64,000 nucleotides of DNA from Halovivax cerinus (lineage in GTDB: Archaea > Halobacteriota > Halobacteria > Halobacteriales > Natrialbaceae): positions 3,410,001-3,474,000 of the forward strand of contig NZ_CP101824.1 in NCBI RefSeq assembly GCF_024498195.1, read 5' to 3'. The stretch's first letter is position 1. The number at the start of each line of letters is the position of its first letter. Under the pieces are notes generated by a model. It ran no database searches, had not been told where the DNA came from, and worked only from the letters and a program-made list of their open reading frames with translations. Both the position numbers and the translations under genes were made by a program. Positions 11,774 through 63,066 of the stretch are shown in pieces.

Positions 11774-12901
11774 TCAATCGAAGACGTCGTACTCGCTCTT
11801 GATCGGGGTCGATTCGTCGTCTTCGCCGTCGCTCTCGGTCGTCCCACGGTGTGCGGCGACGCGTCGACGGTTGATCTCGCCGATCCGATCGGCGATCGCC
11901 GTGACCGTGTCGTCGACGCGCCCCTGCACCTCGCTCCCGTCGTGCTTCACGACGGGACCCGATCCGTCCGTCTCGCCGAAGTCCGGATGCATCGGGAGCG
12001 AGCCGACGAGCGGAATGTCGTAATCCGACAGTGTCTGTTCGACGCCCTGGCTATCACCGAGCAGTCGGTGTTCGTCACCGCAACTGGGGCAGACGAAACT
12101 GCTCATGTTCTCGACGACGCCGATCACCGGCGTGTCGTGTTCGTTGTACATCTCGATCCCCTTTCGGGTGTCGTCGAGTGCCATGTCCTGTGGCGTCGTG
12201 ACGATGACGGTGCCGGTGACGGGCATGGCCTGCAGGAGGTTCAGCGTCGCGTCGCCGGTCCCCGGCGGCAGGTCGACGACGAGGTAGTCGAGTCGACCCC
12301 ACTCGACGCCCTCGAAGAACTTCATCATGAACTTGTTGACCATCGGACCGCGGAGCATCGCGGGGTCGTCGTCGTTCTCCAGGAGGAATCCGGTGGAGAT
12401 AATCCGGACGCCGTCCGACCGTGGCGGGACGAGATCGTCGTCCGGCGTCACACCCGGTTCGCTCTCGACCGGGAGAATCCGGGGGACGTTCGGACCGTGA
12501 ATGTCGGCGTCCAGAAGGCCGACCATCGCACCGCGTTTCTCGAGTCCGGCCGCGAGATTCGCCGCGACGGTCGTCTTCCCGACGCCGCCCTTCCCCGACG
12601 AAACTGCGATCACGTTCTTCACCCGTGGCAAGACTTCCGCGTCGAATCCGATATCCTCTCCGACGCGAGCGCGCAAGTCCGGTTCGGCGCCCAGGTCCTC
12701 GATGGCGTCCCTGATAGCGTTTCCGAGCTCCGCCTCCGTCTCGGCGAACGGCGTGTTGAGAGCGAGCGAAACGGTGACCGTCTCGTCAGTAATCTCGACC
12801 TCGTTGACCAGGCCCAGGGACACGACGTCGTCGCCGAGCACCGGATCGTCGATGGATTCGAGGGCGTCGTAGACGGCTTCTTCGGACGGTTGTGAACTCA
12901 T
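11774..12901 (-). CDS. mrp: Mrp/NBP35-family ATP-binding Fe-S cluster carrier
   Basis: 375 residues. N-terminal MIP18/DUF59-like domain (about 1-85, SLGLVNEVEITDETVTVSL), then a deviant Walker A P-loop (SSGKGGVGKTTVAANLA, 101-117) and the MinD/Mrp motifs DADIHGPNVPRI and YLVVDLPPGTGD. A CxxC pair (FVCPSCGDEH) is the expected bridging Fe-S ligand. Known family members assemble or transfer [4Fe-4S] clusters in the cytosol. The C-terminus is an acidic tail. It converges with the asparagine-synthase-like gene. Confidence 0.92.
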   Translation of the reverse strand: MSSQPSEEAVYDALESIDDPVLGDDVVSLGLVNEVEITDETVTVSLALNTPFAETEAELGNAIRDAIEDLGAEPDLRARVGEDIGFDAEVLPRVKNVIAVSSGKGGVGKTTVAANLAAGLEKRGAMVGLLDADIHGPNVPRILPVESEPGVTPDDDLVPPRSDGVRIISTGFLLENDDDPAMLRGPMVNKFMMKFFEGVEWGRLDYLVVDLPPGTGDATLNLLQAMPVTGTVIVTTPQDMALDDTRKGIEMYNEHDTPVIGVVENMSSFVCPSCGDEHRLLGDSQGVEQTLSDYDIPLVGSLPMHPDFGETDGSGPVVKHDGSEVQGRVDDTVTAIADRIGEINRRRVAAHRGTTESDGEDDESTPIKSEYDVFD

Positions 12902-13278: not shown

Positions 13279-13596
13279 CTACGGGAGCGGTGACGGCGCC
13301 CCGCCGTAGAAGACGAGTCCGAGCAGGACGGTGAGGATGAACATGCCGACCCACATGTTCGCCGTGACGCCGACGAGGTAGAGGACGCCGACCAGCCCGG
13401 TCTTCTCGTCGCTCGGATTCCCCACGAACCACGAGATCGTCATGACGTAGATCGGCATCAGGATGATGCCGAAGATCATCCACGATCCGGGACCGGGGAA
13501 ACCGGTCGTTCCGCTCGTGGGTTCGTAGCCGTGATACAGCGGCCAGTCGAGCAGTGCGTACGTCGTCGCGTCGAGTGCGGATGCGAGTAGGCTCAT
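13279..13596 (-). CDS. Small membrane subunit of the FeS/NrfD operon
   Basis: 105 residues with two to three likely membrane helices: about 38-60 (WMIFGIILMPIYVMTISWFVG) and 68-100 (a long segment through NMWVGMFILTVLLGLVFYGG). No family recognised. It overlaps the end of the NrfD-like gene by 4 bases (ATGA), so it is the last gene of a tightly packed three-gene operon. It is probably a small anchor or accessory subunit of the membrane complex. Terminal Pro-rich tail GGAPSPLP. Confidence 0.75.
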   Translation of the reverse strand: MSLLASALDATTYALLDWPLYHGYEPTSGTTGFPGPGSWMIFGIILMPIYVMTISWFVGNPSDEKTGLVGVLYLVGVTANMWVGMFILTVLLGLVFYGGAPSPLP

Positions 13597-14939
13597 GCTT
13601 CTACCTCCGTCGGAGCGTCGTCGTGTCCGTGCTCACCGTTCAGGTGCTCGATGGCGTGCAGTTCGACGATCGGTACGATCTTCGAGACCACCAGGAAGAT
13701 CAACGAGACCATCCCGATGGTACCGAGGACGGACGCGATCTCGATCAGGCTCGGCATGTACGTGCCGGGAACGGCCTCGTACATGCTGAACTGCACGTAG
13801 AGGAACCCTTCGACGACGAACAGGATCTTCTCGATCAGCGTCGCCGACAGCACCGCGAACGCGGTGATGATCGCCCGCGTCTTGGTGAACAGGGCGGGAC
13901 GAATACCCTGTGCGAAGATGTAGATCATGGAACCGGCCACGAGACCGAGCGAGAGGATGTATCCCGGGTGGTGGAGCTTTCCGTGCGTGGCCTCCCCGCC
14001 CGCGACACCGGGCAGGAAGACGCCGTTGATGACCTGCTGAAGCTGGAACCAGAGGAACATCAGACAGAAGAACCCGAGCCAGAGCAAGAGGCCGCGGAAG
14101 ACGTCGCGGGTGATGATGTGCTCCCAGTCGTAGGCCTTCGTGAAGGCGGCTGCGGCGATGATGACGCCGCTGATCGCGGAGGTGAGCGCGATCGAGAGGA
14201 ACTGCGGGCCCTGGATGCCGCCGTCCCAGACTGGGTAGGTCGCCAGCAGCGAGAACAGCCACGGGATGACCCCGCCGTGGAGCAAGAGCGGCGCCATGAT
14301 GATGATCGCCGCGGCGATCCACCAGACCATCCGCTCTATGATCTCGTCTTCGGCTTCGGTGTAGCCGAGCGTGAGGAACTTGTAGACCGGCTCCAGGATG
14401 TCGGGGAGATCGTCGCGCAACCTGACGATGTCGTATCTGATGGTCAACCCGAGGTAGGTCGCCGTCAGCACGAAGTAGGCCGTGATGACGGTGACGTCCC
14501 ACACCAGCGGCGAGTTGTGAACCGTGATGTGGTAGTGGCCGAGGACGCTCGTGACCATGCGGTCCGGTCGGCCCATGTGGACGATGATGTAGAAGCCCGC
14601 TGCGGAGAGCCCACCGAGGGTCAAGAGCTCCGCCATCCGGGCGACCGGCATGTACCGTTCCATGCCGAGCAGTCTGACGGCCGCCGAGAGGATGATACCG
14701 CCGTGGGCGATCCCGACCCACCAGATGAAAGCGCCGATATAGACGCCCCAGGTCACGCCGCCGCCGCTCCCCCAGTCACCGAGGCCGGTTACGACCAGCC
14801 CCTTCTCGAGCTGGTAGGCCCAGCCGACCAGGAATACCAGGAACGCGAGCCCGGCGATGCCAGCGAGGGCGACCCACTTTGCGGTAAACGTGTTGATTGG
14901 CCGGAGGATGTCCCCTTCAGATGGTGTCTCGGCGCTCAT
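13593..14939 (-). CDS. NrfD/PsrC-family polytopic quinone-interacting membrane subunit
   Basis: 448 residues with about nine to ten hydrophobic helices. It belongs to the NrfD/PsrC family, whose members pass electrons between the menaquinone pool and an FeS partner in DMSO, polysulfide and tetrathionate reductases and in alternative complex III. Visible hallmarks: the N-terminal helix region WVALAGIAGLAFLVFLVGWAYQ, a WWVGIAHGGI loop, and HMGRPDRM, a conserved-type segment near the quinone site. Its ATG follows directly after the stop codon of the FeS gene with no spacer, and its own stop overlaps the small membrane gene. No molybdopterin or heme catalytic subunit is present in the window. Confidence 0.85.
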   Translation of the reverse strand: MSAETPSEGDILRPINTFTAKWVALAGIAGLAFLVFLVGWAYQLEKGLVVTGLGDWGSGGGVTWGVYIGAFIWWVGIAHGGIILSAAVRLLGMERYMPVARMAELLTLGGLSAAGFYIIVHMGRPDRMVTSVLGHYHITVHNSPLVWDVTVITAYFVLTATYLGLTIRYDIVRLRDDLPDILEPVYKFLTLGYTEAEDEIIERMVWWIAAAIIIMAPLLLHGGVIPWLFSLLATYPVWDGGIQGPQFLSIALTSAISGVIIAAAAFTKAYDWEHIITRDVFRGLLLWLGFFCLMFLWFQLQQVINGVFLPGVAGGEATHGKLHHPGYILSLGLVAGSMIYIFAQGIRPALFTKTRAIITAFAVLSATLIEKILFVVEGFLYVQFSMYEAVPGTYMPSLIEIASVLGTIGMVSLIFLVVSKIVPIVELHAIEHLNGEHGHDDAPTEVEA

Positions 14940-16634
14940 TTAGATCCCCCTGACCGTCTCTTCGTCGGTGACGTCCATGCGGTTGCTCACGAGCGAGACA
15001 CTGTCGCCGTTCGCACGCGGGTACGTGACGTCCGCGTACTTCGTCACCGGCTTGTTCTCGGGCAGTTCGTCGCTCGAAAGCTCCTGGGCGTGTGGTCCGG
15101 GCTGATTGCCGAGGTAGGTGACGTTCGGGTTGGTTCCGATATCCTCGAGGAGGTTGAACGTCGAGTCCGGCGAGCCGTAGACGGATTGAAGGACGGCGAG
15201 CGCATCGTCCACGTTCTCCTCCCAGAGGTTGAGCAGTTGCCGGTTCTCGGTCGACTCGAAGTCGATACCGGCCGCCTCGAGGGCGTCGTTGTACTCGCGA
15301 ACCTTCGCGACGTCCGTCGCGAACGACCGCTCGTGGGTGTGTTGTTCGGAGATGTCGATCTCGTCGGCCACGATGACGATCGAACGGATGATCGCGATCC
15401 GCTCGTATCCGTTCGCGCCGAAGTACGTCGCGGCTGCGTTGTCCGAGTGGAAGAGTTCGAAGGCGTCCTCGAGCGTCGCGTCACCGGACGTGCCGAGTTC
15501 CGCTTCGACGTCTTCGAGGGCCGGCAGTCCGAATCCGCTTCCACCGGGGCCGTCGAAGAAGTGTTCGACCGCTCGACCGAACGCCGGATACTCCTTGTAG
15601 ACGCTCGGGTCGCTCCCCTCGTCGTTGACGTCGCCGAACTGGATCGCACCCGGCGGACAGGCGTCCATGCACGCGGTCGTGCCGACCTTCTCGTCGCCGC
15701 CGTAGCCGTCCTGACGGCTCGGACAGAACGTACACTTGCTCATGACGCCGCGCGGGGAGCGGCTGTCGACGGGGCGACCACGCTCGTCGTGGATGTGGTC
15801 GCCGTCCATGTCGGCGTGTTGCTCCTTGATCGCCTGCTGACTGATGTCGGGTTCGTCCCACTGGAAGTAGTTGACACCGTACGGGCAGGCGACCTGGCAG
15901 TACCGGCAGCCGATACAGACGTCGTAGTCCGTCAGCACGATGCCGTCCTTGCCGCGAGTGTGACGGGCCGTCGTCGGACAGACCTTCTCACACGGCGCGT
16001 CGGTACAGTGCTGACACGGTCGAACGAGGTAGGGCCAGTCCTTGACGTTGGCTTCGTCGGGATTCTCCGGCGCGCCCACCGTGTCGTCCTCGTAGGCCAT
16101 GACGTACATCCAGTTGACCCCCTGGTCGAGGTTGTTCTCCTCGCCACAGGCCTGCATGCACGAGAGACAGCCGTCACAGACCTCCAGGTCGATCGTCATC
16201 CCCCACTGCTTGCCCTGGGGTTCGTCGCCTCCGGAAGAGGCGGATGTCGCGGGTCGTTCACGGTTCTCGGCCAGTGCCCCGACACCGAGCGCGGCGCCGC
16301 CAACGCCCATCTTCTTCATCACGTCGCGTCGGCTCTGGTCGCCGTCTCCGAGGGACGTGAGCGCGTCGAAGAACCCGCCGTCCGAGTCGTCGAGGTCCTC
16401 GATGGCAGCCGCCGTCGGCCGCTCGTCCTCGCCGAACTCGGCTTCGACCTGTTCGTGGTACTTCTCGTGGAACTCGGCTTCGGTCAGCTCACCAGCGACC
16501 AGTCGCTGGGCGTCTTCGGCCATGGCGAGTCCGAGGTCGGTGTCGTACTCGGTGTCGTCGAGCATCGACTCGAGTTCGGACTCCCACTCCGCGCCGAGCG
16601 GATGGAACGATTCGTCCTCTGTATTCGTACTCAT
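14940..16634 (-). CDS. Four-cluster 4Fe-4S electron-transfer protein with internal Tat motif
   Basis: 564 residues. Residues 1-100 are an acidic domain without cysteines. A twin-arginine motif SRRDVMKK (RR at 102-103) and a short hydrophobic stretch follow. The core (about 140-350) has four cysteine groups: CDGCLSCMQAC, CQHCTDAPCEKVC, CIGCRYCQVAC and CTFC...CMDAC, as in DmsB/PsrB/NrfC/ActB proteins that carry four [4Fe-4S] clusters. The last 200 residues are an extra helical domain. The Tat motif lies inside the protein rather than at the start, which is odd; it suggests either an unusual export signal or a relic. First gene of the operon with the NrfD-like and small membrane proteins. Start at the ATG before STNTEDESF. 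Confidence 0.88.
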   Translation of the reverse strand: MSTNTEDESFHPLGAEWESELESMLDDTEYDTDLGLAMAEDAQRLVAGELTEAEFHEKYHEQVEAEFGEDERPTAAAIEDLDDSDGGFFDALTSLGDGDQSRRDVMKKMGVGGAALGVGALAENRERPATSASSGGDEPQGKQWGMTIDLEVCDGCLSCMQACGEENNLDQGVNWMYVMAYEDDTVGAPENPDEANVKDWPYLVRPCQHCTDAPCEKVCPTTARHTRGKDGIVLTDYDVCIGCRYCQVACPYGVNYFQWDEPDISQQAIKEQHADMDGDHIHDERGRPVDSRSPRGVMSKCTFCPSRQDGYGGDEKVGTTACMDACPPGAIQFGDVNDEGSDPSVYKEYPAFGRAVEHFFDGPGGSGFGLPALEDVEAELGTSGDATLEDAFELFHSDNAAATYFGANGYERIAIIRSIVIVADEIDISEQHTHERSFATDVAKVREYNDALEAAGIDFESTENRQLLNLWEENVDDALAVLQSVYGSPDSTFNLLEDIGTNPNVTYLGNQPGPHAQELSSDELPENKPVTKYADVTYPRANGDSVSLVSNRMDVTDEETVRGI

Positions 16635-61883: not shown

Positions 61884-61945
61884 ATCCGGCCGTGAACGAT
61901 CCATACATCGGTTGCTGATTGGACCGTCGGACTGTAGGACCAATA

Positions 61946-61959
61946 CAAATATACATAAA
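61946..61959 (+). promoter_or_regulatory. TATA-like box for the copper lipoprotein gene
   Basis: CAAATATACATAAA lies about 22-35 bases upstream of ATG 61981. It is among the most AT-rich spots in the window. Confidence 0.55.
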
Positions 61960-61980
61960 CGAAAGTCGAATACGTTCCGT

Positions 61981-63066
61981 ATGGAACGTCGATCGGTCCT
62001 CTCCGGAACGGGTCTCGCGCTCGCAACGAGTATCGCCGGATGTCTGGACACCATCGGCGACGAACCGACGTCGGCGACGGCCGGAACGACGTCGGCGTCG
62101 GCCTGCGAAGCGGGCCGCGCGGTCCTCGAAGCGATCGGAAACGAAGAGTACGAAACGGCCGCTGCGTACTACCCGACTGCGCTCGAAGAGAGCGGGCACG
62201 GCCCGAGCCCGGTCGACCGGTACCGGACAGTTCGGACGCCGGACGGGATCGGCGACATCGAGTGCGGAGAGGCCACCTCGGACCCGGACCTCGAAACCCA
62301 GTTCTCCGAGTGGATCGACGGCGACGTGGGAACCGCGAAGACGATCCAGTACACGGCCGACGTCGATGTCGGATCGGTATCGATCGAGACGACTTCACAG
62401 GTCGGCGCCGTCGAGATCGACGGCGACTGGTACGCCTGGCTCGACTCCGAGCTCGTCCCCCGACCGAACGCGGGGGTCACCGTGGACGAAGACGGACTGG
62501 AGACAGCGACCGTCACCTACACCAGCGGCAGCGATGGTGTCTCCGTGTACATCACCGGGGACGGGATCGACGATCCGACGGCGTACCGCCTCGAGTCGCC
62601 CGGCGCATCGACGACCGTCGCGGCGCCAGACCTCCCGCCGGGACGGTACGAGGTCGTCGCCGCGCGCGAACCGTACGACGAGGACGTGGCCACCACCGAG
62701 GTCGCCGTGTTCGAACTCGTCGACCGGGACGCCTGGCGAGACGTCGACGAGATCGTCTTCAGCGCGGAGACGGTCGCGTGGGTGGGACGCGCCCCCGACC
62801 ACGTCGAGGGCGTCGAGAATCCCACGCTCGTCCTGGAGGCTGGACGGACGTACCGAATCGGGTGGGATCGAGGGAACGGACAGGGGCACAATTTCGAGGT
62901 GCACGACGCGGCCGGCACCGTCGTCGACGACTACGAGACAGAGCTCGCGATCGAGCCGGACGACGATCAGTTCCTGACCGTCACCGCGACCGAAGAACTC
63001 TCGACGTACCGATGTAGGCCACATACGGCTATGTCGGGGGCTATCGAGGTCGTCGACGAACTGTAG
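61981..63066 (+). CDS. Secreted lipoprotein with C-terminal cupredoxin (halocyanin-like) domain
   Basis: 361 residues. N-terminal signal with twin Arg (ERRSVLSGTGLALATSIAGC): RR at 3-4 and lipobox ending at Cys21, so it is a Tat-exported lipoprotein. Residues about 40-170 form an alpha/beta region like NTF2-type fold segments (EAIGNEEYETAAAYYPTA...), unassigned. About 180-260 is a beta domain. The last 95 residues are a type 1 copper domain: His303 (GHNFEV), Cys345, His348 and Met351 (YRCRPHTAM), the four expected ligands. It is therefore likely a periplasm-side electron carrier or copper protein. A TATA-like box precedes it. Confidence 0.85.
   Translation: MERRSVLSGTGLALATSIAGCLDTIGDEPTSATAGTTSASACEAGRAVLEAIGNEEYETAAAYYPTALEESGHGPSPVDRYRTVRTPDGIGDIECGEATSDPDLETQFSEWIDGDVGTAKTIQYTADVDVGSVSIETTSQVGAVEIDGDWYAWLDSELVPRPNAGVTVDEDGLETATVTYTSGSDGVSVYITGDGIDDPTAYRLESPGASTTVAAPDLPPGRYEVVAAREPYDEDVATTEVAVFELVDRDAWRDVDEIVFSAETVAWVGRAPDHVEGVENPTLVLEAGRTYRIGWDRGNGQGHNFEVHDAAGTVVDDYETELAIEPDDDQFLTVTATEELSTYRCRPHTAMSGAIEVVDEL

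Follow-up and report, generated by a model that had tools for sequence, protein, structure and literature searches.

Operon layout and conservation

We analysed a 64,000-nucleotide window of the Halovivax cerinus genome (contig NZ_CP101824.1, positions 3,410,001 to 3,474,000), a haloarchaeal genome present as a single contig of 3.90 Mb. The window contains an operon on the minus strand that encodes an iron-sulfur (FeS) protein, a predicted NrfD-like quinone-binding membrane protein and a small membrane protein, a set that we propose as a substitute for complex III. The features discussed below are the following.

14940..16634, minus strand: FeS subunit, 564 amino acids (aa), ATG at 16634 and stop at 14940, with a Ferredoxin_N domain, an internal twin-arginine translocation (Tat) signal, four 4Fe-4S clusters, a helical insertion and a conserved tail
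16410..16604, minus strand: Ferredoxin_N domain (PF16947), FeS residues 11-75
16275..16334, minus strand: Tat signal SRRDVMKKM..., FeS residues 101-120 (TIGR01409, 21.1 bits, cut-off 16.7)
15609..16205, minus strand: four-cluster domain, FeS residues 144-342, 16 invariant Cys
15165..15587, minus strand: helical insertion, FeS residues ~350-490, only in FeS1 of Natrialbaceae, confidently helical in the model
13593..14939, minus strand: predicted NrfD/ActC-like quinone-binding membrane subunit, 448 aa
13279..13596, minus strand: small membrane protein, 105 aa, two hydrophobic segments
11774..12901, minus strand: Mrp/NUBPL-type iron-sulfur carrier P-loop ATPase, 375 aa (PF10609, 283 bits), syntenic fourth gene

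A first-pass annotation, made from the letters of the window, had described three tightly coupled open reading frames (ORFs), and their coordinates, strand, 0-base gap between FeS and NrfD and 4-base overlap between NrfD and the small protein were all confirmed. The synteny search that it recommended has now been run: the three genes stand together in 42 named Natrialbaceae loci having an NrfD ortholog, and on this ground we do not regard the operon as a chance arrangement. The small gene is present in 42/42 of these loci and Mrp in 40/42. The three-gene extent given earlier is therefore right as far as it goes but overlooked Mrp, which is the fourth member of the cluster and probably a maturation factor.

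The cluster, with its small membrane protein, is conserved across relatives and occurs also in distant haloarchaeal families beyond Natrialbaceae. Within the genus, the FeS match at the Halovivax asiaticus locus (L052; L and G numbers denote our loci and genomes) is 78% identical. Non-haloarchaeal relatives of NrfD are distant, with a best match of 3e-77 and the rest near 1e-50 or weaker; the closest one found (G487:C79:4674-5891) comes from an incomplete genome that does not belong to the class. Tandem duplication of the small membrane protein gene, between NrfD and Mrp, was seen in about a dozen loci (L058, L063-L066, L069, L071, L073, L074, L081, L085, L097).

The NrfD subunit resembles ActC

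The NrfD subunit matched PF03916 at 69 bits (cut-off 25.8), and its only significant relatives by sequence in the PDB were ActC chains of alternative complex III (ACIII), with E values of 1e-14 to 3e-17. Its AlphaFold model (pLDDT 79, pTM 0.84) superposed on ActC over 408-414 residues with VIA Z scores of 35-38 and Foldseek TM scores of 0.79-0.82, the top matches all being from ACIII. Weaker VIA matches were obtained with ActF (Z 27), PsrC (Z 16) and subunits of bd oxidases (up to 18.6).

NrfD His121, Ser143 and Asp148 align with ActC His139, Ser164 and Asp169, which have been named as quinone-site residues (PMC8076601), while ActC Asp253 has no conserved counterpart in the NrfD–ActC sequence alignment. 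His121 is conserved in the ortholog group and is replaced by Asp in those haloarchaeal NrfD proteins that are linked to a molybdopterin catalytic subunit (MopB). Similarly, Lys371 near the C-terminus is conserved only in this ortholog group and not in the MopB-linked NrfD; it may correspond to the gating Arg/Lys in transmembrane helix 8 and to Lys329 of DsrP1.

This Halovivax genome has one NrfD only. Many other Natrialbaceae carry a lone second NrfD near uvrC/uvrB (L033, L036, L130, L131), which we considered as an ActF counterpart and rejected, since it retains the quinone-site residues, unlike ActF. Many also carry a lone second FeS near leuA/ppc (L122-L124); in L035, FeS2 and NrfD2 are adjacent with a high-potential iron-sulfur protein (HiPIP) upstream, and elsewhere the pair is split. 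A divergent FeS-NrfD-small cluster (L051:6166-10787), whose NrfD is 43% identical and has Ser replacing His121, adjoins a gene for an ethylbenzene-dehydrogenase-type heme domain (PF09459); it may be another variant, one that has a heme partner.

The FeS subunit carries its own Tat signal

The four-cluster FeS protein predicted by the first-pass annotation was borne out: the cluster Cys are 153,156,159,163 / 207,210,215,219 / 240,243,246,250 / 301,304,322,326, and all 16, making up four 4Fe-4S motifs, are invariant in the 29 FeS relatives aligned. The acidic N-domain is likewise present, although it is no unknown addition: it belongs to the known family Ferredoxin_N (119 bits) and precedes the internal Tat motif, which points to export of the cluster domain. 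The helical region is also real but not C-terminal, as it is inserted after the fourth cluster and ahead of the conserved tail LLEDIGTNPNVTYLG, and shorter homologs lack it. The structure model of the subunit is of low confidence overall (pLDDT 57), the insertion being its sole well-predicted part; no clear fold match for the insertion came from a search with this whole-subunit model.

In canonical haloarchaeal MopB operons, Ferredoxin_N is encoded by a separate gene of 77-121 aa just before the Tat-bearing MopB gene. Examples of such stand-alone genes are L126:7122-7364, L127:7067-7432, L128:7486-7743, L133:7334-7579 and L134:7591-7824, which often overlap the MopB gene. This position points to a function of the domain in Tat export or maturation rather than to a ferredoxin, and the Pfam name is misleading. 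In the operon described here, Ferredoxin_N and the Tat signal are both carried on the FeS subunit and MopB is absent. One reading is that the FeS-NrfD module was derived from a canonical MopB operon by loss of the catalytic part, though the derivation may have gone the other way.

The operon is complementary to cytochrome b

We compared the distribution of NrfD orthologs (E < 1e-130) with that of cytochrome b (PF00033) in 292 haloarchaeal genomes. PF00033 is absent from 69 of these, and a PF13631 search of the 69 found no cytochrome b over the cut-off. The NrfD ortholog is present in 67/69 genomes without cytochrome b versus 29/223 with it (Fisher p 5e-40, not corrected for phylogeny). The same pattern holds within families, where the counts without and with cytochrome b are 56/56 versus 8/18 in one (p 6e-8) and 8/8 versus 5/50 in another (p 7e-7), and further cases of complementarity occur in two other families. 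The idea of a quinone-linked function put forward in the first-pass annotation stands, but the relation to cytochrome b had been missed.

COX2 was found in 66/69 cytochrome-b-less genomes, the three without it being G007, G092 and G128. Only G007 and G092 lack the operon as well, and both have CydA. Consequently, every sampled genome with a COX2-bearing oxidase and without cytochrome b carries the NrfD ortholog (66/66). We rejected one apparent pseudogene in a genome with cytochrome b (G287, where a stop had been reported within the match), since its ORF of 445 aa is intact; it therefore does not speak for decay of the gene in the presence of cytochrome b. The Rieske family PF00355 was uninformative, as matches occur in genomes both with and without cytochrome b.

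Halocyanins, oxidases and nitrite reductases near the operon in relatives

In five genera of two families (L044, L183, L184, L185, L186) the gene immediately upstream of FeS, in the same orientation, encodes a halocyanin. The five products match TIGR03102 at 115-142 bits (cut-off 93.8) and have a Tat motif and a lipobox. Their genes are separated from FeS by -19 to 87 nt, overlapping it in L184. A related cupredoxin gene is also adjacent, but divergently oriented, in L043 and L040; the former matches PF00127 over the cut-off and the latter is a weak cupredoxin match. L050 contains, in this order, FeS, NrfD, Mrp, a cupredoxin-like Tat lipoprotein on the opposite strand, COX2 with a CuA motif, and COX1. 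This lipoprotein has no Pfam cupredoxin match and its axial Met is replaced by Gln; its motif and its likeness to other cupredoxins lead us to call it blue-copper-like. The earlier statement that no other partner is near is true of the operon in the window with regard to halocyanin, but it missed that halocyanin adjoins the operon in relatives.

In several Natrialbaceae the copper nitrite reductase NirK is encoded 2-4 kb upstream of FeS (for instance L097:3132-4859, L063:2779-3912 and L075:3771-4901), at some loci together with a cupredoxin. Three were verified by TIGR02376 at 355-374 bits, and the others were assigned by the cupredoxin hidden Markov model (HMM). Many proteins of ~360-380 aa that match the cupredoxin HMM were considered as halocyanins and rejected, the three that were checked being copper nitrite reductases.

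The H. cerinus genome has no PF00033 or PF13631 match. It encodes five PF00127 cupredoxins and three COX2 proteins, each with a complete CuA motif (CxxxCxxxHxxM), and nearly all COX2 loci inspected carry the full motif. Elsewhere in the window, 61912-63066 on the plus strand encodes a Tat lipoprotein of 384 aa with a C-terminal cupredoxin-like domain (PF00127 17.4 bits, cut-off 21.2). In three Halovivax genomes a second FeS paralog, without the insertion, stands tail-to-tail with COX4, COX1-3 and COX2 (L120:7541-12976 in this genome, L121:1801-8413, L091:6998-12575), and it has a HiPIP-cupredoxin fusion gene as a further neighbour in L121.

A proposed menaquinol:halocyanin oxidoreductase

Considering all the above, we think it likely that haloarchaea without cytochrome bc use the product of this operon in place of complex III, as a menaquinol:halocyanin oxidoreductase. 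Gene content, synteny, the absence of MopB and cytochrome b from this genome, the complementarity, the halocyanin operons of relatives and the structural match to ActC, on which this proposal draws, were all computed here. From them we infer the substrate, direction, acceptor, proton movement and assembly roles of the complex as follows. Menaquinol would be oxidised by NrfD at a site close to the outer side of the membrane. Each electron would then be relayed on its own along the four 4Fe-4S clusters of the FeS subunit, which is predicted to be exported by Tat, and reach halocyanin, a blue copper protein. Halocyanin would in turn reduce the CuA site of heme-copper oxidases, and thus oxygen, and in some relatives would probably also feed copper nitrite reductase. 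NrfD may in addition move protons, as in ACIII. For the small protein we envisage the role of an accessory subunit in the membrane, and for Mrp the supply of Fe-S clusters.

With a little less assurance, we consider that the operon probably represents a further architecture of complex III. This would be an archaeal quinol:halocyanin oxidoreductase composed of a single NrfD, a single FeS protein with four clusters and a single small membrane protein, with no heme or molybdopterin-type domain. It would have taken the place of cytochrome bc in several lineages of haloarchaea and might pump protons via NrfD.

Several observations weigh against this proposal. A single family accounts for most of the 67 genomes, and the raw p-value overstates their independence as a result. 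Both cytochrome b and the NrfD ortholog occur in 29 genomes, which means that the complex is not only a replacement, and G128 has the operon, yet matched neither COX2 nor CydA. In the window the operon has no halocyanin gene beside it, and this genome has one cytochrome bd quinol oxidase (CydA), making a direct route from quinol to oxygen possible in addition. Finally, with 16/16 Cys kept, the cluster nearest the quinone is probably 4Fe-4S, unlike the 3Fe-4S cluster of ACIII.

About one-third of haloarchaea, chiefly Natrialbales, lack a known complex III, and the operon offers a specific candidate to fill this gap. How electrons pass from quinol to halocyanin in such haloarchaea has been called unresolved (PMC8305020), as has the quinone-to-halocyanin step in the genome paper of Natrialba magadii (PMC3403918), and Sorokin et al. 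reported neither complex III nor alternative homologues in natronoarchaea (PMC6176080). Calisto and Pereira grouped 42 archaeal NrfD proteins with ActC, ActF and DsrP but labelled them DmsC (PMC8076601). In the open-access literature, to which our search was confined with subscription papers outside its scope, we found no earlier proposal tying the operon to complex III. Searches for a complete ACIII would miss it, because the MopB-like and cytochrome subunits are absent. If the proposal is true, a bare FeS-NrfD module can act as complex III, which would bear on the sharing of modules between ACIII and molybdopterin enzymes, and the labels DmsC and polysulfide reductase given to archaeal NrfD proteins of this kind would need correction.

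Alternative explanations

The complex might instead run in reverse, as an input module: the FeS subunit would take electrons from a donor in the periplasm and NrfD would pass them to quinone, which is the direction proposed for Qrc. NrfD modules are able to run either way (PMC8076601), and the FeS subunit does match QrcC, although at 120 bits, far under the cut-off of 400. However, the neighbours in relatives (halocyanin and CuA oxidase, or NirK and cupredoxin) are all electron-accepting, the loci read showed neither a multiheme cytochrome nor a hydrogenase or formate dehydrogenase, and the distribution of the operon tracks the loss of complex III. We therefore regard the reverse direction as unlikely.

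Slightly less probable still is a specialised role for the operon, for example in denitrification via NirK or in a stress response, with cytochrome-b-less species respiring by quinol oxidases alone. The NirK genes upstream of FeS and the CydA of this genome would fit such a role, and the use of quinol oxidases was concluded for the related natronoarchaea by Sorokin et al. 2018 (PMC6176080). On the other hand, the near-universal COX2 of the cytochrome-b-less genomes, with its CuA motif complete in nearly all loci inspected, is difficult to reconcile with respiration by quinol oxidases alone. Moreover, CydA is absent from 12/20 sampled cytochrome-b-less genomes with the operon, two of the 12 being Halovivax (cytochrome bd is absent in 2/3 Halovivax congeners), and the window and other loci have no NirK beside the operon.

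The first-pass annotation had noted no molybdenum enzyme nearby, and indeed a PF00384 (MopB) profile search of the whole H. cerinus genome found no protein, so that there is no displaced catalytic subunit here. PF00384 was likewise not found in 2/3 congeners nor in 4/16 further sampled genomes. The same annotation had proposed that orthologous operons regularly containing a molybdopterin subunit would speak against it; we looked for these and no MopB lies inside any ortholog locus examined. MopB matches were located in the loci of a distinct clade of MopB-linked haloarchaeal NrfD, 24-31% identical to this NrfD, and G098 and G256 have a separate complex iron-sulfur molybdoenzyme (CISM) operon with its own FeS subunit a few kb away. 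Two weak 'MopB' matches were obtained, both with a long query ORF taken whole from L136: the one in L041 is a GHMP kinase gene, and the one in L042 lies at the edge of the locus. That the operon is a dimethyl sulfoxide/polysulfide-type reductase with its molybdopterin subunit encoded elsewhere, as the canonical haloarchaeal order (Ferredoxin_N, MopB, FeS, NrfD, chaperone) and the DmsC label of Calisto and Pereira (PMC8076601) might suggest, is thus highly improbable, and for this genome is refuted by these searches unless the catalytic protein falls outside all known MopB families.

Relation to known systems

The first-pass annotation had raised the possibility of an unrecognised quinone-linked complex or relay, a minimal relative of ACIII or Qrc, and our results support it, with ACIII nearer than Qrc by structure. 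Relative to the ACIII reference (ActABCDEF; PDB 6btm, 6f0k, 6lod, 8k9e), the operon shares an ActC-like NrfD with the quinone-site His/Ser/Asp kept, an FeS domain that matches the C-terminal part of ActB, and a predicted role in passing electrons from quinol to a one-electron carrier, for which the halocyanin synteny in relatives is indirect support. The ACIII of phototrophs likewise passes electrons to a blue copper protein, auracyanin, going by the title of Majumder et al. 2013 as cited in PMC10100899.

It differs from ACIII in that the FeS protein lacks the MopB-like domain of ActB and in that there is no ActF. No cytochrome c of the ActA/ActE type was seen either: CxxCH is absent from the three operon proteins and no such gene was recognised beside them, the rest of the genome not having been searched for cytochrome c. 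Features of its own are Ferredoxin_N, the linkage to Mrp, the helical insertion (Natrialbaceae) and its occurrence in Archaea. Since a MopB domain, heme c in the operon proteins and ActF are all missing, we do not count it as a member of ACIII, although it would work in the same manner.

DsrOP of the DsrMKJOP complex is also a four-cluster FeS protein and an NrfD without MopB, and DsrO and DsrP are the best NCBIfam matches, but at 137 bits (cut-off 200) and 61 bits (cut-off 350), respectively; no DsrM, DsrK or DsrJ was seen at the locus, and the hosts of the operon are aerobes with CuA oxidases. Qrc (QrcABCD) and Nrf (NrfABCD) share the quinone module of FeS and NrfD, yet the former has MopB-like and multiheme subunits and the latter a multiheme nitrite reductase, none of which is present at this locus, and the scores are below cut-off for both. 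The haloarchaeal Dms/Psr-type CISM operons (L126, L133) have Ferredoxin_N, a four-cluster FeS protein and NrfD, with Mrp nearby in some, but they possess a Tat-bearing MopB and a chaperone, their FeS protein has no Tat signal and their NrfD has Asp at the position of His121. Lastly, the cytochrome bc/b6f-type complex (PetABD) of other haloarchaea, whose cytochrome b is absent here, consists of unrelated proteins and has the same role that we propose for the operon, the transfer of electrons from quinol to halocyanin.

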